From a virus, in the IMG/VR virus record IMGVR_UViG_3300044489_000211, positions 1 to 33,710 of that record: a stretch of DNA of 33,710 bases. One strand, 5' to 3'. Shown piece by piece: positions 9,072 through 31,197 of this stretch (position 1 is the stretch's first letter; each line of letters starts with the position of its first letter). The notes below the pieces were generated by a model. It ran no database searches. It was given only the letters and a program-made list of their open reading frames with translations, and was not told where the DNA came from. The position numbers and the translations under genes were made by a program.

Positions 9072-9605
9072 CTAGCTACCGTACATGGTCGAGTTCAGAA
9101 TCTCCTGGGACCCAGGTACGCCCAGGATCCCGTAAGCGTACAACGTCATTCCGGTCTTCAGGGCCGCCTGGTCGAGGGCCCGGCCGAAGTCTGGACGATC
9201 GATGGTCCGCTCAAGCCAGGGGTGACCAGAGACACCGACCGTCTTGATCTTGTACCACACCGGCCCGGCCGGAAGTCCGCGGTGCTCCGCCCATGCCTTG
9301 ATGGGGGCGAAGGGAACCCGCTCGATAGGACCAGTCCCGGTTTGCAGGATCCAGCCCGCATCCCATCCGCCCTTGTACTTCTTCCGAGGCCCGACCGTCA
9401 GCCTCTCGGGTTCAAGTGTGGCCGAGACGCTGTCCTGCAGCTCGCCCCGGTAGCGGTGCTGCTCCAGCGACTCCCGAATGATCGCCACCAGCTTGGTCCC
9501 CAGATGAGCCAGGTTGGCCTGGACGAACTGCGCCTTCAGGCCCGAGGCCTCGGCGAAGTTCGTCGCCATCTTGGACAGGCCGGACGTATCTACTGCAACT
9601 GACAT
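9072..9605 (-). CDS. HK97 gp10-like head-tail (neck/tail completion) protein
   Basis: A 177-residue protein with the pattern of the HK97 gp10 family: an N-terminal helix pair, then a segment with YRGELQDSVSATLE, RLTVGPRKKYKGGWDAGWILQTGTG and AWAEHRGLP, matching the family's 'G x L x x S x x x x' and 'G x x Y A x x x E x G T' order. These proteins join the head to the tail. The chosen ATG (9605) sits 16 bases inside the end of the upstream glycosyltransferase gene; a longer reading to 9671 would overlap that gene without a ribosome binding site. It has no cysteine. Confidence 0.6.
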   Translation of the reverse strand: MSVAVDTSGLSKMATNFAEASGLKAQFVQANLAHLGTKLVAIIRESLEQHRYRGELQDSVSATLEPERLTVGPRKKYKGGWDAGWILQTGTGPIERVPFAPIKAWAEHRGLPAGPVWYKIKTVGVSGHPWLERTIDRPDFGRALDQAALKTGMTLYAYGILGVPGSQEILNSTMYGS

Positions 9606-10783: not shown

Positions 10784-10964
10784 TCTGGGCCTCGGCATAG
10801 CGCCGGTTGATGGCGTCGAGCATGACGTACTCGATAACCCTCACGATGCTCACTCCTCGCCGTTCAAGCCGTCCGGCCGCCCATTCCCTGGCGATCCGGG
10901 TTGCCTTCTCGGTCCACGGCGCCGCCCCCTCTTCGAAGGGGTCATGCCTCTGCGTCTCTTCCAT
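10776..10964 (-). CDS. Small hypothetical protein between two glycosyltransferases
   Basis: A 62-residue, charged, mostly helical protein (EKATRIAREWAAGRLERRGVSIVRVIEYVMLDAINRRYAEA). I do not recognise it. It is flanked tightly by the two glycosyltransferase genes, overlapping the downstream one by eight bases. A small adaptor for one of them is possible but not supported by any motif. Confidence 0.45.
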   Translation of the reverse strand: MEETQRHDPFEEGAAPWTEKATRIAREWAAGRLERRGVSIVRVIEYVMLDAINRRYAEAQNG

Positions 10965-10985
10965 CGTCGCCTCCGCTCGACCTTC

Positions 10986-12251
10986 TCATTCCACATAGAT
11001 GGTTTCTGGCAGCCTCGCATTGGCCCTGCGGGACTGCTGCTCGGATGCAATACGGGCGTACAGGGCGATCAGCCGCTCGGCGTTGGCCTCCATCGTGAAC
11101 CGCTTCAGGGCCCATGCCTTCCGCCCCTGAGCCTCGGCCTTGTAGTGCTCCAGGCCCCGGATCCGCTCCGCCAAAGCGTCGTACCAGGCGTCCTCGCTCG
11201 ATGGGACGAGCTTCCCATACCGGCCCAACTCACGATAGGGCGCCCCGTCCGAGGCCACGAACGGAACTCCGCAGCAGACGTACTCGACGAGTTTCAGCCA
11301 GGACCTGCGCTCGTCGTAGGACACCTCCCGGTCAGGCGCCGACGTGAAGGTCGACGTCGGACGGAGATCAAGCGGGGCGATCCCGATGTCGAAGGTCGAC
11401 ACCACCAGGGGCCAATGGTCGGCCGCCACACCCCCATGACGCAGGAGCTGCTTCTCGGGCAGCTGGTTCAACAGGTAGTCCAGTCTCGTCTCGCTGCCGC
11501 AGAACTTGAAGAACACCTGGGGGAAGTCCGCCAGGATACGCTTCAGCGCCGGCAGGACCTGGGAGTAGACAAAGCCATCGATGTGCGAGATGGACCCGCC
11601 CCAGCCGATGCAGATTTGCCCCTCGGTCCCCAATCGCTTCCGGGTCCGCATGACAGGAGGGCTGGCGTCCGGCTCGTAGTCCACCAGGACGTCCGCCTCG
11701 CCCAGGGGCTTGGGCACGATCCCCTCATACAGCTTCAGGGCGGGGTAGTTCGGCCAGTAGTACCCAGGGACGACATCCGCCCAATCGGCCAGAATCTCAT
11801 GCGACGGCGAAATCAGGCCGTCGGCATGCCTCAAGCCCTCGGTCATCCGCTCGATCGGGGGAGGGTCAAACTGGAACTGATTGTCGATCCAGAACGGGTG
11901 GGCCGGGTTGGATGGCGGGATCCCAGGGTAGTGGTCGTCCAGGTCGACCAGGACGGTCTTCCCAACCGCCCGCCAGTATTCCATCGCGTCGTAGACTTCG
12001 GGGAAGATGACGTCCCGCTGAAACAGGACGATGTCACCCGCCCCTATCTTCCGCTGGACAAGGGGGTGGTGCAGGGACAGGGAAGTTCGCAGGTTGTAGA
12101 GGTTGGCGGTGTGGGGGAACCCCTTGGGGTTCGCCTCATGGACCGCATTGATGGCATTGGCCAGCAGGTGGCAACGCCACTCAGAGCAGTTCCATTCCTG
12201 CGGCGAGTCGGCGTACAGGTAGACAACGTGCATACCTCCAAATGCGTTCAT
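10986..12251 (-). CDS. Glycosyltransferase family 4-like (GT-B)
   Basis: A 421-residue GT-B enzyme. The N-terminal half contains GDIVLFQRDVIFPEVYDAMEYW and VLVDLDDHYPGIPPSN, then a strand-rich stretch; the C-terminal half has ICIGWGGSISHIDGF, STFDIGIAPL, and RRSWLKLVEYVCCGVPFVASDGAPY, the typical donor-site end of GT4 enzymes (E in LKxxEY, G-x-P-x-x-x-S). It would transfer a nucleotide-activated sugar. The ATG at 12251 follows GGAGAGG; MHVV at 12233 is an alternative start. It lies inside the virion operon, between the connector-like gene and neck genes, so its acceptor may be a virion protein. Acceptor and donor are not readable from sequence. Confidence 0.75.
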   Translation of the reverse strand: MNAFGGMHVVYLYADSPQEWNCSEWRCHLLANAINAVHEANPKGFPHTANLYNLRTSLSLHHPLVQRKIGAGDIVLFQRDVIFPEVYDAMEYWRAVGKTVLVDLDDHYPGIPPSNPAHPFWIDNQFQFDPPPIERMTEGLRHADGLISPSHEILADWADVVPGYYWPNYPALKLYEGIVPKPLGEADVLVDYEPDASPPVMRTRKRLGTEGQICIGWGGSISHIDGFVYSQVLPALKRILADFPQVFFKFCGSETRLDYLLNQLPEKQLLRHGGVAADHWPLVVSTFDIGIAPLDLRPTSTFTSAPDREVSYDERRSWLKLVEYVCCGVPFVASDGAPYRELGRYGKLVPSSEDAWYDALAERIRGLEHYKAEAQGRKAWALKRFTMEANAERLIALYARIASEQQSRRANARLPETIYVE

Positions 12252-18780: not shown

Positions 18781-20400
18781 TCAGCCCCTCCTGAACCGGC
18801 TCTCGCCGCCCGGGCCCCAGGTGGCAGGGCCAGAGTCACCAGGCTTGCCGGGCTCCTTGGGCTCGAGCCAACGACTCGCCTGGGCCAGGACGGCCGGCGG
18901 AACGTTGGCGCCGCCTCCGATGAGAGCCATGACAAAGGCATCCCCGCAGTCGGTCGACCGCCCGATCCGTTCCTGGATGTCGTCCTTGGACTCGATCTGG
19001 ATGCCTTGCGGGGTCGCCTTCCAGCGGGGCGCCACCAGGTCAGCCCGCAGCTCGGGGTCCGGCGGCAGGGCCAGCCGGAGCCCAAACGCTGGGTCCAGGG
19101 CCTCCCGGGCTCGCCACCACAGCTCCGCCCGTAGGTTCCTGAACCGCAGGTTCCCCGATCGGTCAGCAGCCCCGGACGACTCAGCGAAGTTCACAGGCTT
19201 GGCGTCCACCCCGGCCGCCCGCAGGTGGTCATACACCGAACCCCCAACACCGATCACGTCGACGTGAACGGGAATCTGGTAGCCCATCTCCCGAGCGATC
19301 CTGGCCAGGACCGAGGGACCGTCGGGCGTCTCCTTGCCGGGAGTCTTGTTAGGCATCGAGAACCACGGACCTACCCGGGTCATCGCCACCGTCATGTCGT
19401 CACCGCCCCGGGCCACGTCCAGGCCAACGCACAGCAGGGGAGCGCCCGTCGGAGGATCGGACGTCCACCGAGCCATCGCAGCCTCCACCCACTCGGCAGG
19501 GATGACCTGCCAGGGGTCGGCCACCAGCCCGATCGTGAAGTCTCCGTAGAGCAGCTGCGATCGCAGGGGCTCGGGCAGGCCCTGCAGCTGCTGGGGATAG
19601 CCGGTCGTGGCGTAGTAGGGGTTGTCCCAGACGCTGGCCGGAATGAAGGTCCGCGACTTGGGCTCGATGAGCTCGTCCTTCCAGACGAACGCACCGGGCC
19701 CGACCTCCCGCTCGTCCCCGTCGATCCGGGCATACCACCGGAGCTCGCCAGGCTCGGCAGGGTTGGTATGCTGCGGGTCGAGCCAGGCGCCCCACCTCTT
19801 GACCACCCATTGCCCCTCGGCCGTGGTAGGGGGGTTGCCAGTCGCCACCACCCGCGTCCGCTGCCCAGGGATCGGGGTCCGCAGCCAGGCGTTCAGGAAC
19901 ACATACTGCGACTCCAGGAAGTCGCCCACCTCATCGTAGCCCTTCAGGTCATGGGCCCGCCCCTTGTACTTCTGGACGTCCTGGGCATTGTGGACCGCCC
20001 CGAATTCCAGCATGCGGTCGCCTGGAAGGTCGCGCCAGATGTGAAGGTTCTCGTTGAACCGCCCCCGCTCGCCGATGAGCTCGGCCGCCGACGAAATCAG
20101 GTCGCGCAGCTGGGGGAACTCCCGCCGATAGATGATGCTCCGCATGTGGGCCGTGAGAGCCAGGCCCAGCAGGAGCCACGACTTGCCACCGCCGGCCTGA
20201 CCGCCAAAGAACAGCTCGTCAGCCTCGCAATGGAAAGCCCGCTCCTGGGGGGATCCCGGCATCGGTGTCCACATCAGCGTAGCGTCAGCCCTCGCCCGAG
20301 CCAGGCGCCTCAACTTCTCCGCCTTCGCTGACAGATATGCCTGCTCCGGCAAATAGCTCTGTAGCAAGGTCCCTCCCGAGCTCGTCCTTGACGACGTCAT
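18781..20400 (-). CDS. terL: Terminase large subunit
   Basis: A 539-residue DNA-packaging motor with both expected domains. The ATPase part has Walker A GGQAGGGKS (66-74), Walker B LKGYDEVGDF (DE at 156-157) and the coupling motif ATGNPP (186-191). The nuclease part has CVGLDVARGGDD (D328), HVDVIGVG (D381) and STDCGDAFVMAL (D484, D487), the RNase H-like metal site. It translocates DNA into the prohead and cuts the concatemer. The start at 20400 overlaps the small subunit by 116 bases and has only a weak ribosome binding site; a TTG at codon 17 or the ATG at 20274 are alternatives. The downstream small membrane protein follows immediately. Confidence 0.93.
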   Translation of the reverse strand: MTSSRTSSGGTLLQSYLPEQAYLSAKAEKLRRLARARADATLMWTPMPGSPQERAFHCEADELFFGGQAGGGKSWLLLGLALTAHMRSIIYRREFPQLRDLISSAAELIGERGRFNENLHIWRDLPGDRMLEFGAVHNAQDVQKYKGRAHDLKGYDEVGDFLESQYVFLNAWLRTPIPGQRTRVVATGNPPTTAEGQWVVKRWGAWLDPQHTNPAEPGELRWYARIDGDEREVGPGAFVWKDELIEPKSRTFIPASVWDNPYYATTGYPQQLQGLPEPLRSQLLYGDFTIGLVADPWQVIPAEWVEAAMARWTSDPPTGAPLLCVGLDVARGGDDMTVAMTRVGPWFSMPNKTPGKETPDGPSVLARIAREMGYQIPVHVDVIGVGGSVYDHLRAAGVDAKPVNFAESSGAADRSGNLRFRNLRAELWWRAREALDPAFGLRLALPPDPELRADLVAPRWKATPQGIQIESKDDIQERIGRSTDCGDAFVMALIGGGANVPPAVLAQASRWLEPKEPGKPGDSGPATWGPGGESRFRRG

Positions 20401-20749
20401 ACGTCAGGGTCCCCTCTCGAATGAGCGCAATAAGGTCGTCGCGCCACGACTTGAGCACCGTCGGCAGCTTGCCCTCTGTCCTGTCCAGGACCTCCTTCAG
20501 GATCGCCCCGGTTGGCTCGGACATCAGCGACATCCAGAGCCTCAATGCCACCATGCCTTCGATGCAGAGATCGTTCCCGCCGGCCGCCAACTCAGTCGAC
20601 CATGCCTTGCACATCTTGGCCGCCTCGACCGGCGTCATCGCACCGAACTTCCGCAACCAACCCGTGACACGGTTGACGCGCTTGCCAGTCCTGTTCCTTC
20701 GTGGGTCGAAACCGGGCTTGAATGGAACCAGACCAGAACCCCTCGGCAT
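20285..20749 (-). CDS. Terminase small subunit-like protein
   Basis: A 154-residue, helix-rich protein. It begins with a basic, disordered SGLVPFKPGFDPRRNRTGKR segment of the type seen at the start of many phage small terminase proteins (DUF5681-like), followed by helices (MTPVEAAKMCKAWSTELAAGGN, LKEVLDRTEGKLP) and an acidic tail. The small subunit recognises the packaging site and regulates the large subunit. The ATG follows GAGGAG. It opens the packaging-virion operon just downstream of the terminator at 20779. The assignment rests on this N-terminal signature and its place directly upstream of the large subunit. Confidence 0.65.
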   Translation of the reverse strand: MPRGSGLVPFKPGFDPRRNRTGKRVNRVTGWLRKFGAMTPVEAAKMCKAWSTELAAGGNDLCIEGMVALRLWMSLMSEPTGAILKEVLDRTEGKLPTVLKSWRDDLIALIREGTLTYDVVKDELGRDLATELFAGAGISVSEGGEVEAPGSGEG

Positions 20750-20854: not shown

Positions 20855-21835
20855 TTACGCAATGGGGCGACGAGACTCGAAGGTCTCCTTATGCCCACAC
20901 TTGGGGCAGCGCAGGATGAGCCGGCCCCGGACCAGGTCCATCGACACCAGGGGCGTGGCGCACCTCGAGCACTTGACCTTCTTGTGGGACGTCTGAATCT
21001 CCCCGGAGATCGCCGCCAGGTCAGAGTAGACCACCGGACGGCCGGAGTAGTCCCGCTCCCATTGCTCAATCTCGGCCCGGGTGTAGGACGTGTAGGTCCC
21101 GGTCCGCTCCCGCACCGAGCCATTGACGGCCGCCACGTCCTGGTGCCGGTCCAGGAAGTTCACCACCCATTGCAGCGGGGGCTCGTGGGGCTTGGCCCAG
21201 GCATCCCAGACCAGGCGCACCAGCTCCAGGTCCTTCTCGGTGTCCACCTCGAGCCGGTAGGGACGGTAGGACCAATGGGGCAGGTCGACCAGGCCGTAGG
21301 TGAACCGGTCGAGGTGCCGGCGGATCCACATGCCGGGATGCTGCCGCTCCTCGCCAGAGGACAGGCTCGAGGTCCAGCACCATGTCCGGTAGGACCAGGG
21401 GGAAAGCCCGGCGCCGTAGACAGGGTCCGAACCGAACTGCAGGGGCAGCAGGAAGTCCCAGCCGTTGGTCTCGATCGCAGCCGCCGCCTGGTCGATGTGG
21501 TGCCAGTCCACGAAGGGCTGATCACCCAGGGCCCGAAGGACAGGCATCTGACCGTAGCGCCCCACCAGCTTGTCCACCGCCCGGGCCAGCTCCGCCGTGG
21601 TGTCGTCCCCCTGCATCCCACGGGTCGACCATATGCCGAACTCGCTGCAGGCCCGGTCAATCTCCGCGTTCGCAGGATCCCAGGGGGAGGTCACCAGGAC
21701 GTCAGCCACGCACTTGGACTGCTTCAGGCGCCGCACGATGTGGACGAACATGGGTACCCCGGCGATCGGCGCCAGGACCTTGCCGGGCAACCGTTCGGAC
21801 GTCGCCCGGACCCCGAGAACACACAGGACAGGCAT
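20855..21835 (-). CDS. SpsF-like cytidylyltransferase with C-terminal zinc ribbon
   Basis: A 326-residue protein. Residues about 1-240 are a nucleotidyltransferase of the CMP-sugar synthetase/SpsF group: VLGVRATSERLPGKVL (the R-x-x-S-x-R-L-P-G-K nucleotide loop at 10-20), then VLRALGDQPFVDWHHID with the metal-binding acidic residues (GDQP), and a C-terminal VDTEKDLELV. It should activate an acidic sugar with CTP. The last 40 residues hold CSRC (289-292) and CPKC (310-313), a zinc ribbon not usual in this family and of the type found on DNA- or RNA-related proteins. The start overlaps the previous stop as TGATG. It is the last gene of the sugar operon. The sugar substrate cannot be read from sequence. 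Confidence 0.78.
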   Translation of the reverse strand: MPVLCVLGVRATSERLPGKVLAPIAGVPMFVHIVRRLKQSKCVADVLVTSPWDPANAEIDRACSEFGIWSTRGMQGDDTTAELARAVDKLVGRYGQMPVLRALGDQPFVDWHHIDQAAAAIETNGWDFLLPLQFGSDPVYGAGLSPWSYRTWCWTSSLSSGEERQHPGMWIRRHLDRFTYGLVDLPHWSYRPYRLEVDTEKDLELVRLVWDAWAKPHEPPLQWVVNFLDRHQDVAAVNGSVRERTGTYTSYTRAEIEQWERDYSGRPVVYSDLAAISGEIQTSHKKVKCSRCATPLVSMDLVRGRLILRCPKCGHKETFESRRPIA

Positions 21836-22698
21836 CAGGGCCTCCGCACGAACAGGACCAGGTCCCGGGCGCCGTGATTGGCGTACCACAGCATCCGCCG
21901 AGCCAGATCCAGCCTGGACAGGGAACTCTCGGTAGCACGGATGAGCGAATGCAGGTGTCCACCCAGGCCGGGGTGCTTCAGGTAGTCCACCGTGGGCAGG
22001 AACCGGTGCATGGGCGCCGTCCCCAGCACCAGCCCGGGAGCCTCAAAGGCGCAGCGCCGCAGCAGGGCTGTGATGGACTGCAGCGTCCAGTAGTTGACGT
22101 GGGTCGGGTGGACGAAAGGCGGCCCCCCCCTCAGGGGCTCGTTGGGGATCGCCAGCAGCAGGATCCCACCCGGCCGCAGAGCTCCCCAGGCCCGGCGCAG
22201 CAGCGTGACCGGGTCGGGCATGTGCTCCAGGAGCCAGAGCATGGAGATGACATCGAACTCCCGATGGCCCAGGATGAAGTCGTCGATCCCCCGGTGGGCC
22301 AGGATGAGCTGTCCCACCCTCTGCCGGCTCCATTCGAACGTATGGCGACTGGCCTCTACGGAAGGTTCCACCGCCCACGCCTCCCAGCCGGCGCCAGCCA
22401 GGACCGCCGCGAACAGGCCGTGCCCAGAGCCGACGTCTACCACCCGTCGGCGATCGGCGGGGAGGTTGGTCCGCAGGATGGCCTCATAGAGCCCGTAGAC
22501 GTGCCGGCGCCACCCCTCCTCGGCCAGGATGAGCTCGTAGGCCCCGACCTTCTCGTCCTGCCAGAACTTCTTGGCGTAGTAGTCGGCCAGGAGCCCGGGG
22601 TCAGGAACGGGGTCGAGATGGACGAACCGACAATCCCGACAGTAGCGGGCAGTCGCCCCCAACCCCTCCCAGGACAGGCCCTCGATGAATCTATGCAT
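21835..22698 (-). CDS. SAM-dependent methyltransferase (Methyltransf_23-like)
   Basis: A 287-residue class I methyltransferase. VVDVGSGHGLFAAVLAG (86-102) is the SAM-binding motif I; VEPSVEA follows as motif II and the later LWLLEHMPDP and LRPGGILLLAIPN give motifs IV-V. The N-terminus has ARYCRDCRFVHLDPVPDP, a CxxC element common in the Methyltransf_23 subgroup found in capsule and O-antigen clusters. It probably methylates a sugar or sugar nucleotide. It overlaps the gene upstream by eight bases and the cytidylyltransferase by one base. Confidence 0.78.
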   Translation of the reverse strand: MHRFIEGLSWEGLGATARYCRDCRFVHLDPVPDPGLLADYYAKKFWQDEKVGAYELILAEEGWRRHVYGLYEAILRTNLPADRRRVVDVGSGHGLFAAVLAGAGWEAWAVEPSVEASRHTFEWSRQRVGQLILAHRGIDDFILGHREFDVISMLWLLEHMPDPVTLLRRAWGALRPGGILLLAIPNEPLRGGPPFVHPTHVNYWTLQSITALLRRCAFEAPGLVLGTAPMHRFLPTVDYLKHPGLGGHLHSLIRATESSLSRLDLARRMLWYANHGARDLVLFVRRP

Positions 22699-23422
22699 TC
22701 TCCACCGCCTCCCCGTAGATGAGCAGCCGCTGCCTCGGAATACCGGTGTCTGGATGCGGATAGTGGTCCTCGGAGAAGCATGCCCACTTCGATCGGACGA
22801 ACTCCGTCAGGCCATCGAAGTCGACAGGGGCGTGGATCCCCGGGTGGTCGTCGTCCCGGATGAGATTCACGAACACCGCCTCTCCTATCTCCCCAAGTCT
22901 TGTCAGGAGCTCCTCCTGCTCCGGCCTCGAAAGATGCTCGATCACATCAAGACACAGGACGATGTTGTGCCTCGGGATTTGGACCCCCTGACCAAGGATG
23001 TAGACCGGAAGGGGAAGCCTGAGTTGCCGAAGGCGGTAGATGAGCCACATCAGACTTCGTCCAGGGATGTCCGCAAAGGACACCCGATAGCCCAGGAAGT
23101 GAAGCCCAAGCCCGACCTGCCCACCTCCAGCCCCGTAGTCAAGAACCGACGGCCCATAGCGGTCGGCCGTGGAGGCCAGGAGCTTGGACAGATAGGGCCG
23201 ATGAATCCCCTGGATCGCCAGGGCGACGTTCTGGTAGCAGAAGATGTCCGTCGAGGCAGTCCACTCCTCGTCGCTGCCGGAGAAGGAGGCTCGATCTTCA
23301 ATCGCCTTTTGCTCGTCGGACAGGCAGTAGCTTGGCTTGAAGGTTGGGCCAAAGAACGCCTGCAACTCCAGGAACGACTCGTGCATCCAGAACTGGTTCG
23401 ATAGAGCGTCCAGCGTGCTCAT
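22691..23422 (-). CDS. SAM-dependent methyltransferase (UbiG-like)
   Basis: A 243-residue class I methyltransferase with SVLDYGAGGGQVGLGL (92-107) as the SAM site and IVLCLDVIEHLSRPEQEELL as motif IV-V. Its N-terminal 85 residues are helical and aromatic-rich (FWMHESFLELQAFFG). It overlaps the ATP-grasp gene as ATGA. It may modify a hydroxyl or amino group of the sugar made by this module; a peptide or lipid acceptor is an alternative. Confidence 0.7.
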   Translation of the reverse strand: MSTLDALSNQFWMHESFLELQAFFGPTFKPSYCLSDEQKAIEDRASFSGSDEEWTASTDIFCYQNVALAIQGIHRPYLSKLLASTADRYGPSVLDYGAGGGQVGLGLHFLGYRVSFADIPGRSLMWLIYRLRQLRLPLPVYILGQGVQIPRHNIVLCLDVIEHLSRPEQEELLTRLGEIGEAVFVNLIRDDDHPGIHAPVDFDGLTEFVRSKWACFSEDHYPHPDTGIPRQRLLIYGEAVENA

Positions 23423-24486
23423 GCCAGTCTCCTCTCCGCGTCCAGACGGGCAACCGACCGGGACGTCCCGAACCCCAGCACGAAATCTCCGCGTTCAGGA
23501 TGCGACCACGGCCGGTGGGGGAACCGAAACCGCTGGCAGACATGCATCCGCAGGTAGGGCCTTGGCACGACAGGCTTCCTGCCAAGGCATTGGTCGATCG
23601 CAGCCCCGACCAAGTCCACCCCCCAGACGGCCGGCGTCATCAGCGAGCAGAACCCGCCACCAGATAGTCTGGCGGCCACCTCGACAACGTAGGGCCTGCT
23701 GTTGTGCCAGACCAGGTCCCCCTTCAGGATCCCGGTTCTCAGCCCGATCGCTTGGGCAGCCAGGCGCATCGCCTGAATAACCTGCCATTCGAACCCCCCG
23801 TTGTCCGGGTCGCCCAGCTCAGGGCAGGGCATGTCTGACCCGTCCTCGATCACCGCCGGGGCGAACTCCTCCAGCCTCGAGTAGTTGCGCTCGGCGATCG
23901 CCGTGAACAGAACCTCTCCGTTCTGGATGATGCTCTCGGTCGATAGCTGGGTCCCGTCCAGCCACTCTTGCACCATCGCCCGGCCGGTGGGGGAATGCCG
24001 GACGGCCGTCGCCCAAGCCTCCGCGAGCCTGTGGGGCATAACACGCGAAACCCCCCGACCACCCCGCGAGTCCACAGGCTTGACCACCACCCAGCCGGGG
24101 TGAGCCACAGGCCCAGGGAACGTCAGGGGAACGCTGACAAGCTCGCCCAGCACCTCGTTCTGCAGGAGCTTGTCCTGGGACAGCGTCGCCGCGATGGGAT
24201 CCGGGCCGGGAAGGTCGTAGCGCTCGGCCACAGCCGCAGCGACGTGAGGCGCATCCACCCCAGCACATAGGACCCCGTCCGGTTGAGCGCCAATCTCCTG
24301 CAGGGCGTTCAAGGTGGAGGTCACGTCGTAGCAGGAGGCCAGGACGAACTCGCCCAGGGAGGCAGCAGGACAGGACGGATTGAAGTCGACCACGACAGGT
24401 CTCACACCCATCGCCAGGCCCCGAGCCACGATCGGGACGGCGTCTGAACCTCCTCCCAGGAACACAACCTTCGGCCCTCCGATCAT
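23419..24486 (-). CDS. ATP-grasp ligase
   Basis: A 355-residue protein of the ATP-grasp fold. KPVDSRGGRGVS (136-147) is the glycine-rich nucleotide loop of the A domain, with WVVV before it; LKGDLVWHNSRPYVVEVAARLSGGG carries the acidic and Asn/Arg elements of the metal site. These enzymes use ATP to join a carboxylate to an amine or thiol. In a sugar cluster such an enzyme may attach an amino-acid-like or acyl group to an aminosugar, or make a carboxylated precursor. The ATG overlaps the preceding ThDP gene as ATGA, with GGGAGGGAG before it. Confidence 0.7.
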   Translation of the reverse strand: MIGGPKVVFLGGGSDAVPIVARGLAMGVRPVVVDFNPSCPAASLGEFVLASCYDVTSTLNALQEIGAQPDGVLCAGVDAPHVAAAVAERYDLPGPDPIAATLSQDKLLQNEVLGELVSVPLTFPGPVAHPGWVVVKPVDSRGGRGVSRVMPHRLAEAWATAVRHSPTGRAMVQEWLDGTQLSTESIIQNGEVLFTAIAERNYSRLEEFAPAVIEDGSDMPCPELGDPDNGGFEWQVIQAMRLAAQAIGLRTGILKGDLVWHNSRPYVVEVAARLSGGGFCSLMTPAVWGVDLVGAAIDQCLGRKPVVPRPYLRMHVCQRFRFPHRPWSHPERGDFVLGFGTSRSVARLDAERRLA

Positions 24487-25067
24487 GGCAACTCCCTCCC
24501 CATGCATCCGATCCCCCGGGGCTCGGAGGTCATCTTGTCCGGCTGGTGGCCGGACTGCAGGATGGGCCAGACCCCTATGTCAGAACAGACATACCGCCGG
24601 ACCTGAACTCCAGGATCCCAAAGCCAGCCCATGTCCAGATGGGACTCGGGCTTGGAACCCGGTCGACCGCGGGCCCACTCGGTCGCCACGTGGGGGATCC
24701 CGTTGAGCTCCTCGAACTGATGCACGATCCCCGCCACCCCGTTGTCCAGGATGGCAACCTTCACCGGCAGGGAGTAGGCCCGGCAGGTCGTCAGGTGAAT
24801 GCGCTCCATTTCCCAGCAGCCATCCCCGGTGACGACCAGGACGAGCCTCTCAGGGTTCGCCAGCTGGGCCCCGATCGCATAGGGTAGCGCCGAGCCCATC
24901 GTTCCATGCCCGCAGGAGGTCAGGAGCTGGCGCCTGGGATAGTCGAGCGTGAACCCCCGGGCCGCCACGGACTGGTGGGTCCCGACCCCGACACAGACCG
25001 TGACGTGAAAGTCCCGCGTCGCCTCGTTCAGCGCCGCCACCACCTCAGACATCGTGAAGGTGTGCAT
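24483..25067 (-). CDS. ThDP-binding C-terminal domain of split acetolactate-synthase-like enzyme
   Basis: A 194-residue protein equal to the C-terminal domain of the acetolactate synthase family. It carries the thiamin diphosphate motif: VTGDGCWEME (GDG 81-83) and, about 26 residues on, VAILDNG (N109), with TCRAYSLPVKV between, as in acetolactate synthase. CGHGTMGSALPYAIGA precedes it as usual. It is the pyrophosphate-binding half of a ThDP enzyme and is inactive without the N-terminal domain, encoded two genes upstream. The start chosen is ATG at 25067 (GGAG upstream); ATG 25052 overlaps the previous stop by eight bases and is also possible. The terminal residues after MGWLWDP are shorter than in full-length enzymes. 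Confidence 0.75.
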   Translation of the reverse strand: MHTFTMSEVVAALNEATRDFHVTVCVGVGTHQSVAARGFTLDYPRRQLLTSCGHGTMGSALPYAIGAQLANPERLVLVVTGDGCWEMERIHLTTCRAYSLPVKVAILDNGVAGIVHQFEELNGIPHVATEWARGRPGSKPESHLDMGWLWDPGVQVRRYVCSDIGVWPILQSGHQPDKMTSEPRGIGCMGRELP

Positions 25068-25428
25068 GCAGCCACTCCGCAACCGTTTCGCAATGAGCCT
25101 CGACCGCAACGCGGGCAGCCCGGAGCTCGGACAGGTCCGTGTTGACCATGACCACCCACTTGCCGGCCCACAGGTCCGGCGCCGTCCCGGTCTGGCGCAT
25201 GTCCAGCCGGGTCCCCAGGGCGATGATTTCCTCGGCCTCCGCCACCGCCAGGTTCGCTGCACGGTCCCCGGTATGGCCAATCATCCCACGAAACAGGACG
25301 TGGTCGGTGGGCATTATCCCCAGGCCGCCCATGCTGCAGACAACAGGAGTCAGCGTTCGCTCGGCGTAGTCCCGGACCTCTTTCCAGGCCGACAGGGCCC
25401 CCCGGCCGACAATGATGAGCCTCTTCAT
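25045..25428 (-). CDS. Central domain of split acetolactate-synthase-like enzyme
   Basis: A 127-residue protein matching only the middle (TPP_enzyme_M) domain of the acetolactate synthase family: GRGALSAWKEVRDYAERTLTPVV, then GLGIMPTDHVLF, GMIGHTGDRAANLAVAEAE and IIALGTRLDMRQTG, the family's 'GxRLDxRxTG' element. This domain supports the ThDP domains and in some enzymes binds FAD or an ADP-like ligand. As a stand-alone polypeptide it is unusual. The ATG overlaps the stop of the N-terminal domain gene as ATGA. It probably assembles with the proteins encoded before and after it. Confidence 0.7.
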   Translation of the reverse strand: MKRLIIVGRGALSAWKEVRDYAERTLTPVVCSMGGLGIMPTDHVLFRGMIGHTGDRAANLAVAEAEEIIALGTRLDMRQTGTAPDLWAGKWVVMVNTDLSELRAARVAVEAHCETVAEWLHAHLHDV

Positions 25429-25913
25429 AGCAGCAGGTCCGCCGGGATCGAGATGACCCCCGGCCCGCCGGCCAGCAGGGGGATCGCATCCAGGACGGCC
25501 CGCCAGGGGGCGTCGTTGGGCTCCACAGCCACCAGGGATATGGACTGGCACAGCCGGACGGTGGGGGTCCATTGAAAGCCGTCCTGACGCGTTCCACGGC
25601 CCATCTGATCGGTAGCCACCTGCCCACACAGGAACAGGACCTGGTCCCCGTCGTAGTAGGCGTCGGCCAGGGGCGTCAGGGCGTTCGTCACCCCGGGTCC
25701 AGACGTGACCACCACCACCCCCAGCTGACCGGACGCCCGGAAGTAGCCCTGGGCAGCGTGACCCGCAGCCGCCTCGTTCACGCACACGATGAGACGGATC
25801 CCGACATCCCGCATGGCAGCCAGGAGCCTGGACACCGTCCCGCCAGGGAACACGAAGGCCAGCCGGACCCCGGACTCCCACAGCACTTTGGCGATCCGTT
25901 CGGCGCCGCTCAC
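25425..25913 (-). CDS. N-terminal (PYR) domain of split acetolactate-synthase-like enzyme
   Basis: A 162-residue protein equal to the pyrimidine-binding domain of the ThDP family: GVRLAFVFPGG, then the catalytic-glutamate region LIVCVNEAAAGHAAQGYFRASG (E47) and VVVTSGPGVTN (70-77) with LADAYYDGDQVLFLCG, exactly the order in acetolactate synthase. The start is GTG (25913) in a GTGA overlap with the previous stop. In known family members this domain is part of a single chain or is separate in two-subunit enzymes such as sulfopyruvate decarboxylase. Here the enzyme is in three pieces. Confidence 0.72.
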   Translation of the reverse strand: MSGAERIAKVLWESGVRLAFVFPGGTVSRLLAAMRDVGIRLIVCVNEAAAGHAAQGYFRASGQLGVVVVTSGPGVTNALTPLADAYYDGDQVLFLCGQVATDQMGRGTRQDGFQWTPTVRLCQSISLVAVEPNDAPWRAVLDAIPLLAGGPGVISIPADLLL

Positions 25914-26470
25914 AGCTCTGCCTCCCGGATGATTTGGTCGGCAGCCTCGGCCGGCGAAAGGGCCAGTCGTCCGTCCATCGTGTCGCCGGGCAGGAGCCGG
26001 ATCATGTCGGTGTCGACCAAGTCGAACCGGATGAGGTAGACCCTCCAAGATGAATGCTCGGCCAGGGCCCGGGCCGCCTTCTCCAAGGCCGCCTTCGCCA
26101 TCCCGTAGCCCAGGTCGACCGCCCCGGAATTAACCGCCCCGACCGTGGAAATGAACACAACCTTCGACCACCAGCCGAGAAGTTTGCTACCGTGGGCCGC
26201 CAGGAGGGCCACAGGAGCCGCCGCGTGCAGGGAGTAGGATGCCAGCAGGTCCGAGAGCCGCTTGACGCCCCAGGGGGCCACGTCGAGCCGCCCGGCCGAG
26301 AATACCACCAGGTCGTAGGGCTGCTCCTCCAGGAACTCCGGCCAGGCCATCGGGTCGGTGATGTCCACCGCCGAGCCAGTAGAACGGACGTTCCACCCCA
26401 GCGTCCGCAGCCGATCGGACAGGGCCAGGCCGATCCCACGCGTCCCCCCGATCACCAAGGCCCTAGACAT
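25910..26470 (-). CDS. Short-chain dehydrogenase/reductase
   Basis: A 186-residue SDR. MSRALVIGGTRGIG gives the dinucleotide loop GGTRGIG (8-14); VVFSAGRLD stands for the NAG motif; STVGAVN contains the catalytic Ser (S108) and YGMAK the Tyr/Lys pair (Y122, K126). It is shorter than the usual 240-260 residues, having lost most of the C-terminal substrate loop. It would reduce or oxidise a sugar hydroxyl. The ATG overlaps the PseG-like stop by eight bases. PtmA in Campylobacter legionaminic acid clusters is a known SDR in such a setting; orthology is not claimed. Confidence 0.75.
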   Translation of the reverse strand: MSRALVIGGTRGIGLALSDRLRTLGWNVRSTGSAVDITDPMAWPEFLEEQPYDLVVFSAGRLDVAPWGVKRLSDLLASYSLHAAAPVALLAAHGSKLLGWWSKVVFISTVGAVNSGAVDLGYGMAKAALEKAARALAEHSSWRVYLIRFDLVDTDMIRLLPGDTMDGRLALSPAEAADQIIREAEL

Positions 26471-27365
26471 TGAGCACCGCCTTGGCAACCCTTGCAAGCC
26501 CCTTGCCATCGACCAGGTCCTGGCCGGCCTCAGCCAGGACGGCCCGCCGGCGGTCGTCGAGCAGGACGTCCCGCACCACCGGAACCATATCCCTGGAAGG
26601 GCAGTCGGCCAGGATCCCGCAGTCGACCACCACCCCCATCGCGTCCAGCTTGGCAGCCGTCTCCTGGTGGTCGGTCGACCGCGACACCACCACCGGAACG
26701 CAGCCCAGCGACATGGACTCGTAGGTCGACATCCCGAGACTGCCGGCGTGGACCGGCGCCGCCCGCTGCAGCCCGTAGAGCATTTCCCCGGGCTCTGGGA
26801 CGAGGGCGTCAGGGAAAGCCCGCAGCAGGGCAACCTGGTAGGACTCCGGGATCCCGGCGCCGAAGGACACCAGGGGCTCCCGCTCCTTCGCCCCGCCCCG
26901 CCGGCCGTAGGCCGGGCCGAGCATGAGATAGTCAGGCCCCGACAGCGATGGCACCAGGTAGTGGTGCTTCACGTGAAACCCTGTCTGGTAGATGAGCAGA
27001 GAGGCCGCCGCCGCAATCTCCTCGGTGATGCTCCAGCCGGCCCCGACGATCACCACCGATCGCGGGCAGGACCGGAGCCAATCGTCCCTCGGAAACATAA
27101 CGTCCAGCACGAACACGTCCGCTTGGAACCCCGAGGCCTCCACAGGGCTGACGTCCCGCAGGTCGGTCTGCTTCAGGGGGAGCCGGCGCGCCAGGAGCCA
27201 GTCAGGAATGAGCTCCAGCCGCCGAGCATCGAAAGCCACCCCGACCTCGCAGGACTTGGACAGGCAGTTCGCCAGGTGAGAGGACCGGACGATGTGACCC
27301 ATCCCCTCGTTCCCGCCGCCCGAAACGTAGATTAGAACAGATGGTCGACGACGTCCAGAACCCAT
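26463..27365 (-). CDS. PseG-like UDP-sugar hydrolase / GT-B protein
   Basis: A 300-residue protein with GGGNEGMGHIVRSSHLA at residues 16-32, the Gly-x-Gly-His-x-x-Arg signature of PseG/SpsG-type UDP-2,4-diacetamido-trideoxy-sugar hydrolases. The C-terminal half has APVHAGSLGMSTYESMSLGCVPVVV, the GT-B-like donor site with E in YESMSLG. PseG releases the free sugar from UDP in pseudaminic acid synthesis, giving the substrate for a NeuB-like synthase. The ATG at 27365 has GAGGAGG upstream and overlaps the previous gene by 34 bases. Its company (synthase, cytidylyltransferase) supports a nonulosonic acid role. Confidence 0.75.
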   Translation of the reverse strand: MGSGRRRPSVLIYVSGGGNEGMGHIVRSSHLANCLSKSCEVGVAFDARRLELIPDWLLARRLPLKQTDLRDVSPVEASGFQADVFVLDVMFPRDDWLRSCPRSVVIVGAGWSITEEIAAAASLLIYQTGFHVKHHYLVPSLSGPDYLMLGPAYGRRGGAKEREPLVSFGAGIPESYQVALLRAFPDALVPEPGEMLYGLQRAAPVHAGSLGMSTYESMSLGCVPVVVSRSTDHQETAAKLDAMGVVVDCGILADCPSRDMVPVVRDVLLDDRRRAVLAEAGQDLVDGKGLARVAKAVLNV

Positions 27366-28129
27366 TGGGCCTCCTCGGGCATGCACAGCAGACCAGGCAG
27401 CCCGGTGTCAGCGAAGGTCACGAACTGCTCCATCATGCGCTTGTGCATCGGGCTGGGAACGGTCAGGGGGGCAGCGTAGGACGTCGGGCGATCGTAGGGC
27501 TTCCGCCCGGGCCACGACCCCTCGATGACGCTGAAGGGCTTCCCGGCGTTCGTCCACTCCAGGGAAATCCTCGACCGGCCAGCCGGGTGGGCCAGCTCCA
27601 GGTGCAAGCTGTGGTCGGTCGAGGATCCTGCCAGGACCTGCGGGGGCCCGCCCATGATATGACAGGCCAGGTCGATGCTGTGGACACCGGAGGTCAGGAC
27701 GATGCCACCGCCCTTCGACCGATCGAACAGGTGGTCCCCGCCCCGGAACGTCCACAGCGCGTCGACCGCTGTCAGGTGCAGCCTGGCAGGGGCCGGCCGC
27801 AGGAACGGCCCGATCGCCTGGTGGAACCGCCAATTGAAGCCCACCGCCAGCCGGGCGATGTCAGGCCGCCGGCGCCAGGCCGCCCCCGAAAGGGCCGGGG
27901 GCTTCTCCACAAGGACCGCATGGACATCAGACAGCTCCTCGAGCTGCTCGGAATGCATCCAGGCTGGTGTTGCGATCACCACGCGGTCGTCAGGCCGGGG
28001 GTCAAAGCCGGCCTGTCCCCCAACAGGGTCGACCACCAGGGGCTCGATCCCAAGGGCCCGCAGGTTGGCAACGTGAACGTTGCCGATCGCTCCGCAGCCC
28101 CCTAGAACAACCCATCTCGGCGCAGCGAT
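27332..28129 (-). CDS. Gfo/Idh/MocA-type oxidoreductase, possible AUC start
   Basis: A 265-residue oxidoreductase. GGCGAIG (10-16) is the NAD(P)-binding loop, VEKPP (EKP at 75-77) the family's signature and GVHSIDLACHIMGG (H150, D153) the catalytic His/Asp. It would oxidise or reduce a sugar or sugar nucleotide. No ATG, GTG or TTG lies near the expected N-terminus. The best candidate is ATC at 28129, with GGAGGTG ending five bases upstream; a reading to 28486 would lie within the aminotransferase gene and give a Gly/Arg-rich false leader. The start is therefore uncertain. The gene overlaps the aminotransferase by 28 bases. Confidence 0.72.
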   Translation of the reverse strand: MAAPRWVVLGGCGAIGNVHVANLRALGIEPLVVDPVGGQAGFDPRPDDRVVIATPAWMHSEQLEELSDVHAVLVEKPPALSGAAWRRRPDIARLAVGFNWRFHQAIGPFLRPAPARLHLTAVDALWTFRGGDHLFDRSKGGGIVLTSGVHSIDLACHIMGGPPQVLAGSSTDHSLHLELAHPAGRSRISLEWTNAGKPFSVIEGSWPGRKPYDRPTSYAAPLTVPSPMHKRMMEQFVTFADTGLPGLLCMPEEAQWVLDVVDHLF

Positions 28130-29265
28130 TGCACCACCTCCCCGGCGGCCTCCACCGTCAGCTGCAGGTGGGGCTCGTGATGGGCCATGCTCATGTAGTT
28201 CGGGCGGTCCAGGACCACCCCCTTGAGAATCATCCGGCGCGAGAACTCGGCCTTGACCTTCTCGTCCTCGAACACGATCGCCGACCGTGGAGCGTGTCCA
28301 ACGACAGGAACGCCGACCGCCGAGAGCTCCTGCTTGAACCGCTCGCCCAGATCCCACAGGTGGGAGTAGACGTCCCCGTGGTGCCGCTCGAGGTAGGTCA
28401 GAGTCGAGATGACCTCGGCGCAATTGAACGGGTCGCCGTTGTAGGTGTTGGAGTAGAACACCCGATCGGATGCAAGGTCCATCCACTCCGAAGGGCCGAC
28501 CAGGGCGGAGATCCCCCGGCCATTCGACAGGGCCTTGCCGTAGCAGACCATGTCCGGCTTGACACCATAGTGCTCGGGCGCTCCTCCAAGAGCCAGGCGG
28601 AACCCCGTCACGATGTCGTCCAGGATAAACGCAGCCCCCACCTCATCGCAGTAGGCTCGGACGGCCGACAGGTAGTAGACCGCCTTCTCGTCCGTGGATG
28701 GCACCTCCACGATCACGGCCGCCGGCGAATCGTCTGCGCGCAGGACGTCCGCATCGCCGAAAGCCAGGTGGCGGGTATTGGCCTTCGCCGACCACATAAC
28801 CCCGGCATCCTGGGGAGGGGTCGAGAACACAACCGAGGAGCCGTGGTAGCCCACCGACAGGACGTCCGGACGACCGGTCACCGCCCGGGCAACACGTACC
28901 GCCATGTCGCAGGCATCCGAACCGTTGGCAAGCCACCTCACCAGCAGGTCCTGGGTCTTCAGGAACGGGGCCACAATCTCCAGCAGACGGATGGCGGCCT
29001 CGACCTCCAGGGCGGATACTACCGAGCCGGGCCCGAACATCTTGTCCGCCAGCCCGCAGGGGCGGTTGAGGTAACCCAGCACCGGACCGCCCTGGTCAAA
29101 CGTCCAGGTCACCATGTGCTTCAAGCCGTCGGGCGTATCCCAGAGCTCGGTGCAGCCCTGCCGCTCCAGGCACATCGCCCACTCCCAGGGAATGGGGCGC
29201 CGGGCGCGGCTCTGGGTTGAGGCGCCGGCCGCCAACAGCTCACGTGGAAGGTTTCTCGATCGCAT
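28102..29265 (-). CDS. Class III PLP-dependent aminotransferase (glutamate-1-semialdehyde aminomutase-like)
   Basis: A 387-residue PLP enzyme. WLANGSDACDMAVRVARAVTGR (111-132) is the family's N-G-S-[ED]-A...A-R-x-x-T-G-R element, FILDDIVTGFR (213-223) the PLP-binding acidic region (the family norm is DEV; here D-D-I), and MVCYGKALSNGR (K244) holds the Schiff-base lysine. It would transfer an amino group to a keto-sugar or semialdehyde. The start ATG lies 26 bases inside the end of the NeuB-like gene, with AGGAG eight bases upstream. Such aminotransferases occur with SpsF/NeuB-like genes in bacterial surface sugar clusters. The exact substrate is unknown. Confidence 0.8.
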   Translation of the reverse strand: MRSRNLPRELLAAGASTQSRARRPIPWEWAMCLERQGCTELWDTPDGLKHMVTWTFDQGGPVLGYLNRPCGLADKMFGPGSVVSALEVEAAIRLLEIVAPFLKTQDLLVRWLANGSDACDMAVRVARAVTGRPDVLSVGYHGSSVVFSTPPQDAGVMWSAKANTRHLAFGDADVLRADDSPAAVIVEVPSTDEKAVYYLSAVRAYCDEVGAAFILDDIVTGFRLALGGAPEHYGVKPDMVCYGKALSNGRGISALVGPSEWMDLASDRVFYSNTYNGDPFNCAEVISTLTYLERHHGDVYSHLWDLGERFKQELSAVGVPVVGHAPRSAIVFEDEKVKAEFSRRMILKGVVLDRPNYMSMAHHEPHLQLTVEAAGEVVQSLRRDGLF

Positions 29266-29920
29266 CGACCATTCTCCTAAAATCTTCGCATGACAGGGAC
29301 CAGGCGGCCTCCGGGTCCGTGGGGGTGAACATGAGATGTTTCTCGATCACCGTCGCTCCCGCGGCGACGGCCATTAGGACGTCCTGGTAGTGCGGGGTGT
29401 GGGAACTCCAGCCCCAGGACGGCTGGGGCCGGAAGTGTGCGAAGGGGTCGTAGGCCGGCCAGTCCACAACGGGATACTGCGGGATGCAACCCAGGAATGT
29501 CTCGTTCGGTCTGCGATCCCGCCAGGGCTGCACCTTGAGCCCCAGGGGGATGGACGTGAACGTCGGCAGCCCGGTGTCGGCGCAGAGGTCGACCAGGGTG
29601 GTGTTGAACGCCTCGCGTGTGGCAAGCTTCAGGAAATCGACCCCGGCGTCGAGACAGGCGTCAACCGCATGCTCGTCGAACACCGAGGCGCCCACCCATC
29701 CGCCGGCGTTCTCCACCACGTCCACCAGCATGCCCAGCAGGTGTCTCGGAAACGTCACGGCCCGCTTGGCGTCCCGTTCCTGCCTCGGAAAGTGCGAAGG
29801 GGTGAACACCTGAACCTTGACATGGGTCGCGCCAGACGCGACGGCCCGCTCGGCGGCCCAGGCCACCACCTTTCGGTCGAAGGGGGCGATATTCGAACAC
29901 AGGTCAGCGATGAGAATCAT
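29240..29920 (-). CDS. NeuB-like nonulosonate synthase, short form lacking SAF domain
   Basis: A 226-residue TIM-barrel protein of the NeuB/SpsE family, which condenses phosphoenolpyruvate with an aminosugar to make a nine-carbon acid. Visible elements: MILIADLCSN, HVKVQVFT (K35 and Q37 of the KxQ motif), FLKLATREAFNTTLVDL, GWSSHT (170-175) and GATVIEKHLMF (188-198), then SLSCEDFRRMVDAI, the C-terminal end of the barrel. The family is normally about 330-350 residues with a C-terminal antifreeze-like SAF domain, which is missing. The short form may act as a different PEP-condensing or aldolase-like enzyme. The ATG at 29920 has GGAGG upstream. Confidence 0.75.
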   Translation of the reverse strand: MILIADLCSNIAPFDRKVVAWAAERAVASGATHVKVQVFTPSHFPRQERDAKRAVTFPRHLLGMLVDVVENAGGWVGASVFDEHAVDACLDAGVDFLKLATREAFNTTLVDLCADTGLPTFTSIPLGLKVQPWRDRRPNETFLGCIPQYPVVDWPAYDPFAHFRPQPSWGWSSHTPHYQDVLMAVAAGATVIEKHLMFTPTDPEAAWSLSCEDFRRMVDAIEKPST

Positions 29921-29948
29921 CGGTGCCTCCTGTCTTGCAATATAGCTA

Positions 29949-30006
29949 GCCTTGCCTCGCCTTGCCCAGCCCCGCCCAGCCTTGCCGCGCCGCGCCAAGC
30001 CTGGCC
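29949..30006. repeat. GCCNN pentamer tandem repeat
   Basis: Eleven consecutive pentamers of the form GCCNN, mainly GCCTT, GCCCA, GCCGC, GCCTC (plus strand), between the dehydratase stop and the NeuB-like start. Copies of ATGAGAATCAT (plus strand) occur exactly on either side, at 29910-29920 and 30007-30017. The tract is outside any supported CDS but the NeuB-like frame is open through it to 29998. Confidence 0.7.
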
Positions 30007-30013
30007 ATGAGAA

Positions 30014-30997
30014 TCATAGCCCAAGCCAGTCCGGCCGATCCAGCATCCACCGCACGGTCTTCTCCAGGGACTGCTCGAAGGTCCTCGGATGCTCCCAGCC
30101 TAGCTCACGCAACTTGGAACCGTCCAAAGCGTAGCGCAGGTCGTGCCCGGGACGACTCGAATGGAAGTCGACCATTTCGTAGGCCAGGGGCTTGCCGACA
30201 ATCGCCGCAATCATCTGGGCCAGGGAAAGGTTGTCCACCTCGCGCTCGCCCACGATGTTCACCTTGTCCCGCGGCCACTCCATCCGCAGCAGAAACAGCA
30301 GGGCCGCCGCCATGTTTCGACAATGGATATACGACCGCCGCCCGGCCTTAGTCCGGGTCGCATCCGAATGGATCGGGACGGTCTCTCCCAGCAGGACCGA
30401 CCTCACCACCTTGGGGATGAACTTCTCGGGATGCTGCCGCTCCCCGAACAGGTTCATGGTGTGAGTCACCAAGACAGGGACCCGGTAGGTGTTGGCGTAG
30501 GCCAAAGCAAGTTCCTCCCCGCCGGCCTTGGTGGCAGCGTAGGGGTTGGCCGAGGCGTAGCGATCCCACTCCCGGTATGAGGTCCCGACAGGGGCGGGCC
30601 CGAACACCTCGTCCGTTGAGAAGTAGACGAACTGCCGCAGGCATTCCAGACCCCGGGCGAACTCGAGCATGTTGAGGGTCCCCTGGACATTCGCCCGCAG
30701 GAAGGGATAGGGATCCTCAATGGACCGATCGACGTGGGTCTCGGCGCCCATGTGGATGATGACCTCGACCTCGCCAATCTCCTGCGCCAGCCCCGGGGAA
30801 ATCGGCAGCGCGAAGTCCGCAGCGTAGACCTCGACCCGCCCATCGTCGAAGGCATCAATGTCCCGCAGCCGGTCCAGGCCATTCGAGGCGTAGGTCAGCT
30901 TGTCCAGGACGGCCACCCGCCAGTCGGTGTTCTTCAGGATGTGCTCGACCAGGTGATGTCCCGCAAAGCCGGCCCCTCCAGTCACCAGGACCTTCAT
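30014..30997 (-). CDS. NDP-hexose 4,6-dehydratase / SDR epimerase (RmlB-like)
   Basis: A 327-residue extended SDR resembling dTDP-glucose 4,6-dehydratase. It has VTGGAGFAG (G7-x-x-G10-x-x-G13), HMGAETHVDRSI, YFSTDEVFG (S127-T-D-E130) and NPYAATK (Y153, K157), the order and spacing of RmlB. It would dehydrate an NDP-hexose to the 4-keto-6-deoxy form, which is the first step towards 6-deoxy and diacetamido sugars. The ATG follows GGAGGCGACG and overlaps the previous stop as ATGA. It heads the sugar module. The nucleotide (UDP, dTDP, GDP) cannot be told from sequence. Confidence 0.82.
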   Translation of the reverse strand: MKVLVTGGAGFAGHHLVEHILKNTDWRVAVLDKLTYASNGLDRLRDIDAFDDGRVEVYAADFALPISPGLAQEIGEVEVIIHMGAETHVDRSIEDPYPFLRANVQGTLNMLEFARGLECLRQFVYFSTDEVFGPAPVGTSYREWDRYASANPYAATKAGGEELALAYANTYRVPVLVTHTMNLFGERQHPEKFIPKVVRSVLLGETVPIHSDATRTKAGRRSYIHCRNMAAALLFLLRMEWPRDKVNIVGEREVDNLSLAQMIAAIVGKPLAYEMVDFHSSRPGHDLRYALDGSKLRELGWEHPRTFEQSLEKTVRWMLDRPDWLGL

Positions 30998-31197
30998 TCG
31001 TCGCCTCCGATCAGGAGATGGTTGGGCAGGACCCGCTTGTCCTCAACGCAGGTCAGCCCGCTCGTCCCAAGGATCGGGACGGGCGAAAGGACCCGGGTGG
31101 CCTTCCTCCCGGTCCGCTCCTCGAACCGGCGCCGGGCGATCATCAGCTGCTGGTCGAGGTTGGCATCCCCCACAAACCAGAACAGGTAGTCGTGCAT
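30994..31197 (-). CDS. Small hypothetical protein
   Basis: A 67-residue protein (start ATG 31197, behind GGAGGA; the previous codon GTG is also possible). It begins MHDYLFWFVGDANLDQQL and ends VLPNHLLIGGDE, overlapping the dehydratase gene as ATGA. I do not recognise it. It lies in the region where a second ORF (31043-31285) overlaps heavily; ribosome binding and stop-start overlap favour this one as real, perhaps both. Confidence 0.5.
   Translation of the reverse strand: MHDYLFWFVGDANLDQQLMIARRRFEERTGRKATRVLSPVPILGTSGLTCVEDKRVLPNHLLIGGDE

Follow-up and report, generated by a model that had tools for sequence, protein, structure and literature searches.

A conserved phage operon predicted to make a CMP-activated nonulosonic-acid-type sugar

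The window analyzed here (IMG/VR record IMGVR_UViG_3300044489_000211, 33,710 nucleotides) is a 33.7-kb virus record encoding terminase, portal, capsid and tail-tape-measure proteins. On its minus strand, from position 30997 to 20855, it carries 13 intact genes that the initial annotation had described as a ten-kilobase sugar-nucleotide operon inside a phage genome; the description and its coordinates are both confirmed. The operon is real, conserved and resident in phage genomes, and most of its logic is common to a nonulosonate-type locus found in bacteria. We consider it probable that the operon directs the synthesis of a nonulosonic-acid-type sugar activated with cytidine monophosphate (CMP), and that this product is used by two candidate glycosyltransferases encoded in the same genome, p421 and p402, with virion proteins as the most likely acceptors. 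The common view is that phages rely on sugars borrowed from their hosts. At ~10 kb, the operon takes up roughly a quarter of a ~45-kb genome and is intact across phages whose structural proteins are about 30-75% identical, and the retention of so large a conserved operon implies that its product is worth a large cost. The clear interest of the system stems from the completeness of the operon in a small phage genome.

Organization and conservation of the operon

The evidence for a phage-resident operon comes first from a second phage, G001 (IMGVR_UViG_3300009285_001776, 44.8 kb), recovered from another metagenome. G001 presents the identical order of 12 genes from the NeuB-like synthase to the SpsF-like cytidylyltransferase, with 49-79% identity between the encoded proteins, and its structural genes are syntenic with those of the window (mostly 60-80% identity). 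In the window these 12 genes are stop-start coupled or overlapping via ATGA, GTGA, ATGTCTGA and TGATG. The initial annotation had counted an RmlB-like gene among twelve overlapping genes; coupling extends over twelve genes, but the RmlB-like gene lies 93 bases upstream of them, as a thirteenth. The genes, in order of transcription, and the flanking terminase genes are the following (percentages denote identity with G001 unless otherwise stated).

30014..30997, minus strand: RmlB-like NAD-dependent sugar-nucleotide 4,6-dehydratase (Pfam Epimerase, 7.9e-42)
29240..29920, minus strand: NeuB-like synthase condensing phosphoenolpyruvate, barrel only (Pfam NeuB, 7.4e-17; ATG behind AGGAGG; 52%)
28102..29265, minus strand: GSAM-type class III aminotransferase/aminomutase (Aminotran_3, 7.6e-23; PRK06209, 7.4e-40; 70%)
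about 27332..28111, minus strand: Gfo/Idh/MocA oxidoreductase (GFO_IDH_MocA_C3, 2.4e-6 to 5e-6; bacterial counterpart adjoins GSAM)
about 26463..27365, minus strand: PseG/SpsG-like nucleotide-sugar hydrolase (GMGHxxR motif; profile match, 8.6e-23; 60%)
about 25910..26470, minus strand: short-chain dehydrogenase/reductase, SDR (adh_short match; phrog_3142, 2.2e-10; 64-65%)
25425..25913, minus strand: thiamine diphosphate (ThDP) enzyme part 1, PYR domain with catalytic Glu (TPP_enzyme_N, 3.7e-33; alignment to intact acetolactate synthase; 69%)
25045..25428, minus strand: ThDP enzyme part 2, central domain (TPP_enzyme_M, 1.7e-21; ATGA junction with part 1; separate gene in G001 too)
24483..25052, minus strand: ThDP enzyme part 3, PP domain with GDG...DN motif (TPP_enzyme_C, 9.2e-25; acolac_lg, 8e-27; separate gene in G001 too)
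23419..24486, minus strand: ATP-grasp ligase, amino-acid-ligase-like (ATP-grasp_3, 4e-9; L-amino acid ligase structure 3vot in PDB, 3.3e-8)
22691..23422, minus strand: methyltransferase 1 (MT1), weak match (Methyltransf_23, 0.06 here and 0.008 in G001; 55-57%)
21835..22698, minus strand: methyltransferase 2 (MT2) (Methyltransf_23, 6.2e-19; 29-33% with bacterial locus relatives)
20855..21838, minus strand: SpsF/KdsB-like CTP:sugar-acid cytidylyltransferase (CTP_transf_3, 1.8e-13; structures of cytidylyltransferases for 3-deoxy-D-manno-octulosonate, KDO, 5e-7; 79%)
18781..20749, minus strand: p154, at the small-terminase position, and large terminase, flanking the operon (phrog_979, 4.9e-30; 74-77%)

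In both phages genes with helix-turn-helix (HTH) and HNH domains precede the operon, and p154 and the large terminase follow it. The operon ends 105 bases from p154, on the same strand as p154 and the large terminase, and no convincing terminator was found between operon and terminase. This arrangement indicates that the operon is probably co-expressed with the structural genes.

Comparison of the operon genes with G001 revealed no stops and, over all genes, nonsynonymous divergence (dN) of 0.17-0.52 against synonymous divergence (dS) of 1.1-1.8, near the values of the structural genes; with dS near saturation, only the direction (dN < dS) is safe, and it points to purifying selection on the operon genes. 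Overall G+C, third-position G+C and codon use of the operon equal those of the structural genes (codon-use r 0.96), and no break in G+C was detected across 20.85 kb or 31.0 kb. Since a second phage, recovered from a different metagenome, keeps this gene order, both chance and the bacterial misassembly that the initial annotation had allowed for are excluded. The view that the block has no phage function, being bacterial cargo or the product of chimeric assembly, could draw on its uniformly bacterial enzyme types and on the metagenomic origin of the contig, but the conservation of order and position in the second phage contig, and in kind in a third, together with the signs of purifying selection and phage-like codon use, leave this explanation close to refuted. 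Close relatives were not found among sequenced phages at the DNA level, and viral scans with the GSAM and SpsF proteins matched G001 only.

Enzyme families and the related bacterial locus

Profile searches placed the NeuB-, PseG- and SpsF-like proteins in the families that the initial annotation had named. The synthase scores 62 bits against the Pfam NeuB model (cut-off 22), which assigns it to the NeuB/PseI family, and is closest to NeuB/PseI among structures. Its alignment conserves two lysines, SxH and EKH, residues involved in substrate and metal binding in the NeuB family. The SpsF-like protein, the best conserved of the operon, reaches 51 bits with CTP_transf_3 (cut-off 22.6), as expected of a CMP-sugar synthetase, with a sugar acid as predicted substrate. 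The C terminus of this protein (window 20855-21100) forms a CxxC...CxxC zinc-ribbon-like tail that is kept in G001; an HTH-like tail takes its place in G1000, a more distant phage discussed below. The PseG-like protein has no direct family match and was identified at 8.6e-23 with a profile built solely from bacterial sugar-locus proteins (five members, of which three were scanned and all three match the PseG model TIGR03590); it belongs by family with the PseG-type enzymes and is a predicted hydrolase. A fold search with this protein was set aside, as its AlphaFold model was of low confidence (pLDDT 47) and returned no usable match. In the GSAM-type enzyme the lysine that binds pyridoxal phosphate (PLP) is conserved in a YGKAL motif. 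The window dehydratase obtains 260 bits with TIGR01181 (cut-off 365) and only 30 bits with the PseB model; its homologues in cyanophages share 52-55% identity with it.

The three ThDP products, when joined, align along an IlvB-type acetolactate synthase (ALS), and the cuts fall in the two interdomain linkers. They share with the IlvB large subunit its three domains (PYR, central and PP), the catalytic Glu, the GDG...DN motif and a VWPL-like C-terminal stretch, and differ from it in being three coupled genes that have lost the linkers and part of the C terminus. The initial annotation had noted an enzyme in three parts, which is borne out; it is not a new enzyme type but one ALS-like chain cut at domain linkers, an unusual case of a ThDP enzyme taken apart in nature. 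Frameshifts due to sequencing error were ruled out as the origin of the split because both phages hold three genes with stop-start junctions. All ThDP matches are to acetolactate synthases and not to transketolases; some bacterial sugar loci have a two-gene transketolase in place of the ALS-type enzyme, and a related ATP-grasp gene on a plasmid lies in a locus that has a split transketolase and no ALS-type enzyme. Single-chain relatives (G678, G722) were discarded as counterparts, since they resemble ordinary IlvB and have no such sugar locus around them.

A search for GSAM relatives in 247 genomes from the phylum of a Desulfovibrio metagenome-assembled genome returned best bacterial matches (to 7e-55) in loci where NeuB, SpsF, GSAM, Gfo/Idh and PseG genes lie in a row, with a relative of MT2 close by. 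This clustering is shared by the window operon and at least five Desulfobacterota loci, several of which also have SDR and ATP-grasp genes nearby, and in one locus a neighbouring dehydratase and aminotransferase exceed the NCBI cut-offs for PseB and PseC. SpsF-GSAM fusions accompanied by NeuB, PseG and ATP-grasp were found in Alphaproteobacteria, and a scan of genome contigs with the ATP-grasp ligase identified three sugar loci (38% identity with the ATP-grasp of a bacterial sugar locus). Most of the enzymes that the initial annotation had listed as extra members, not all of them part of known routes, are therefore components of a nonulosonate-type locus that recurs in bacteria: aminotransferase, Gfo/Idh and MT2 stand beside NeuB, SpsF and PseG in these loci, one of them with genuine PseB and PseC, and SDR and ATP-grasp lie near them. 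The exceptions are the ALS-type ThDP enzyme and MT1, for which no counterpart was detected in the bacterial loci. The phage set further differs from the GSAM loci of Desulfobacterota and Alphaproteobacteria (L084-L088, L092, L046, L047) in that at least two of these (L085, L046) have DegT-type aminotransferases, and in its own three-gene ALS-type enzyme. Identity between phage and bacterial operon proteins is about 40% at most, which argues against a recent pick-up. We did not find in the open literature any paper linking GSAM with NeuB loci or any experimental description of this locus variant, and nothing in the titles and abstracts consulted evidently describes a nonulosonate pathway of phages.

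Related phages and candidate glycosyltransferases

Two probable glycosyltransferases of the window, overlooked in the initial annotation, lie at 9590-12251, between capsid and tail genes.

10986..12251, minus strand: p421, probable GT-B glycosyltransferase in the structural module (Glyco_trans_1_4, 0.0025 and 0.0024 in two phages, both below the Pfam cut-off)
9590..10798, minus strand: p402, probable GT-B glycosyltransferase of the TagF/UDP-GlcNAc-epimerase superfamily (Glyphos_transf, 0.0011)

Conserved in eight phages, p421 did not reach GT-B structures in a profile search; a seven-phage profile of p402 did so (4neq, 2.3e-4; YjiC, 1e-3; TagF, 0.04). Both genes stand with those for capsid and tail proteins in the window, in G001 and in two further phages, G1000 and G995, that were identified, like the other relatives, by scans with the structural-module protein p421 and with p402. 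No match to p421 or p402 was obtained among 50,697 phage records, nor any prophage with p421 in 398 genomes.

G1000 (76 kb; portal 39% and capsid 29% identical to those of the window) carries directly upstream of its terminase genes for a PseB-type dehydratase, NeuB, two GSAM enzymes, a PseG-like protein, a methyltransferase, an ATP-grasp ligase and SpsF. Its GSAM paralogues form a tandem pair separated by a 110-aa protein (L107 10890-14103), and a 213-aa protein without any match is also encoded there. In G995 (45 kb) a PseB-type dehydratase gene is followed by NeuB and then by the contig end, inside the operon; if the genome is circularly permuted, this operon would also precede the terminase. 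Both PseB-type dehydratases score below the cut-off. The other relatives are represented by contigs that lack the stretch preceding the terminase, although that of G997 starts just ahead of this gene, so that the absence of the operon from them is uninformative. Among the 50,697 phage records, the window NeuB found no matches and the G1000 NeuB three, and NeuB-like genes thus look rare in sequenced phages.

Predicted pathway, product and acceptor

In the pathway that we propose, a nucleotide-hexose would be dehydrated by the RmlB-like enzyme in the window, by a PseB-type enzyme in the two relatives or by a host enzyme in G001. Two oxidoreductases (Gfo/Idh and SDR) and the PLP enzyme of the GSAM type would then modify the resulting keto sugar, which would be released from the nucleotide by the PseG-like hydrolase, joined with phosphoenolpyruvate by the NeuB-like synthase and activated with CTP by the SpsF-like enzyme. 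The ATP-grasp ligase may add an aminoacyl or acyl group and the methyltransferases methyl groups, and the three-part ALS-like enzyme could add or supply a pyruvate-derived two-carbon unit. YerE, an ALS-like enzyme, adds a two-carbon unit to a keto sugar in yersiniose synthesis. By analogy, transfer of such a unit onto the keto sugar is the most likely role of the phage enzyme, an assignment that we make with low confidence. Finally, the product would serve p421 and p402 as substrate, the most likely target being virion proteins. A CMP-activated acidic sugar, as put forward in the initial annotation, is the most economical product of this gene set.

The pseudaminic and legionaminic acid pathways (PseB-C-H-G-I-F and LegB-C-H-G-I-F) share with this scheme the NeuB/PseI-type synthase, the PseG-type hydrolase and the cytidylyltransferase, as well as the PseB-type dehydratase of two related phages and, in the bacterial sister locus, bona fide PseB and PseC. 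The phage set adds GSAM, Gfo/Idh, SDR, the ThDP enzyme, ATP-grasp and two methyltransferases. Several observations weigh against the proposed pathway. The synthase (226 aa in the window, 224 aa in G001) stops after the barrel and lacks the antifreeze-like SAF domain, which precludes calling it a PseI or NeuB orthologue; the domain is also missing in the G1000 NeuB and in one alphaproteobacterial homologue. Among the ORFs of the block there is no DegT match that could represent PseC/LegC, a class III enzyme being present instead, and no acetyltransferase match for PseH/LegH. None of the phage proteins reaches the equivalog cut-offs for PseI, NeuB or PseG. The dehydratase varies or is absent: the window enzyme is RmlB-like and not of the PseB/LegB type, and RmlB is the sole operon gene absent from the G001 contig. 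As to transfer, the Pfam GT-B matches of p421 and p402 are weak (about 0.001-0.1), the AlphaFold model of p402 is of low confidence (pLDDT 38), and both genes also occur on contigs without operon genes, of which only G997 reaches the terminase region. With NeuB lacking SAF and with PseC and the acetyltransferase missing, the operon is not a complete pseudaminic or legionaminic pathway; the RmlB-like enzyme, which the initial annotation counted among the four core enzymes, is present in the window but is not a fixed part of the set, with none in G001 and PseB-type enzymes in G1000 and G995.

These departures also bear on the nature of the product. The affinity of SpsF to KDO cytidylyltransferases among PDB structures, the lack of SAF in NeuB and the presence of an ALS-type carboligase could all indicate another 3-deoxy-2-ketoacid, octulosonate-like or branched, and not a nine-carbon nonulosonate. 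We deem this rather unlikely, given that the synthase is closest to NeuB/PseI structures, that a PseG-like hydrolase is present and that the bacterial sister locus has PseB and PseC.

With regard to the acceptor, a conserved enzyme set and two probable transferases among the particle genes suggest that these phages make their own sugar for the particle or the host surface. The position of p421 and p402 points to virion proteins as the putative acceptor, as do precedents in other viruses. Glycans have been described on the capsid and tail-tube subunits of mycobacteriophage particles (Freeman et al. 2023, cited in PMC12619734), which the glycan proposed here would resemble. According to the abstracts of PMC10117803 and PMC9614988, giant viruses (Megavirinae) supply the fibrils of their capsids with rare nucleotide sugars of their own making, likewise through virus-encoded pathways to rare bacterial-like sugars destined for the particle; these are eukaryotic viruses and, judging by the abstracts, their gene set is unrelated.

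Alternatively, the same CMP-sugar might serve, in infection or in lysogeny, to modify O-antigen, capsule or flagellin on the host surface, for instance to block superinfection or to mimic a host nonulosonic acid. The nearest bacterial relatives do lie in pseudaminic-type loci, and cyanophages carry surface-sugar clusters (S-SM2, ACG-2014f, AG-345-L05), phage-borne nucleotide-sugar genes whose RmlB proteins are the closest to that of the window. These cyanophages are large and T4-like, and no GSAM, PseG or ThDP match to the window operon was found in the stretches scanned. The probable co-expression of the operon with the structural genes and the location of both transferases within the structural module speak against the host surface, and no flippase, polymerase, acetyltransferase or integrase was recognized in a non-exhaustive search of incomplete contigs. 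Modification of the host surface hence seems rather unlikely. A sugar placed on phage DNA as an anti-restriction mark would find a parallel in the DNA-hypermodifying phage glycosyltransferases reported in work cited in PMC12619734. No base-hypermodification gene was recognized in the window or among the G001 proteins tested, however, and the methyltransferase of G001 is an ordinary DNA methyltransferase. We also know of no CMP-activated DNA sugar, and regard this explanation as highly improbable.

Transfer of the sugar to virion proteins by p421 and p402 is accordingly the reading that we favour. More tentatively, the operon could represent a pathway long resident in a phage lineage whose product, a nonulosonic acid of new structure, owes its changes to the GSAM enzyme, the aminoacyl ligase and the domain-split ALS-type carboligase; particles would be coated with it via two dedicated transferases, in an autonomous glycosylation system of bacterial viruses. 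A sugar on the particle, if true, would bear on immune recognition, adsorption and host defence, and one on the host surface would bear on superinfection; the operon also constitutes a compact source of new CMP-sugar enzymes.

Further features were observed around these loci. Small overlapping ORFs (68 and 101 aa) without Pfam match lie upstream of RmlB in the window (30994-31348), and their counterparts in G001 (42-44% identity) are directly before NeuB. Upstream of its operon, G001 encodes the DNA methyltransferase mentioned above (phrog_363, 4e-59) and a NinG-like HNH endonuclease (L004 3561-4550, 6670-7326). The gap between the capsid gene and p171 measures ~0.75 kb in the window and, by contig coordinates, ~25 kb in G995, and in L101 (1834-9356) it holds a ~7.5 kb insertion encoding repetitive surface-like proteins. 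Lastly, an unannotated cyanophage-family record, Marine virus AG-345-L05 (L113), contains RmlB-like, SpsF-like and NeuB-like genes within 13 kb, a second kind of phage nonulosonate-like cluster.

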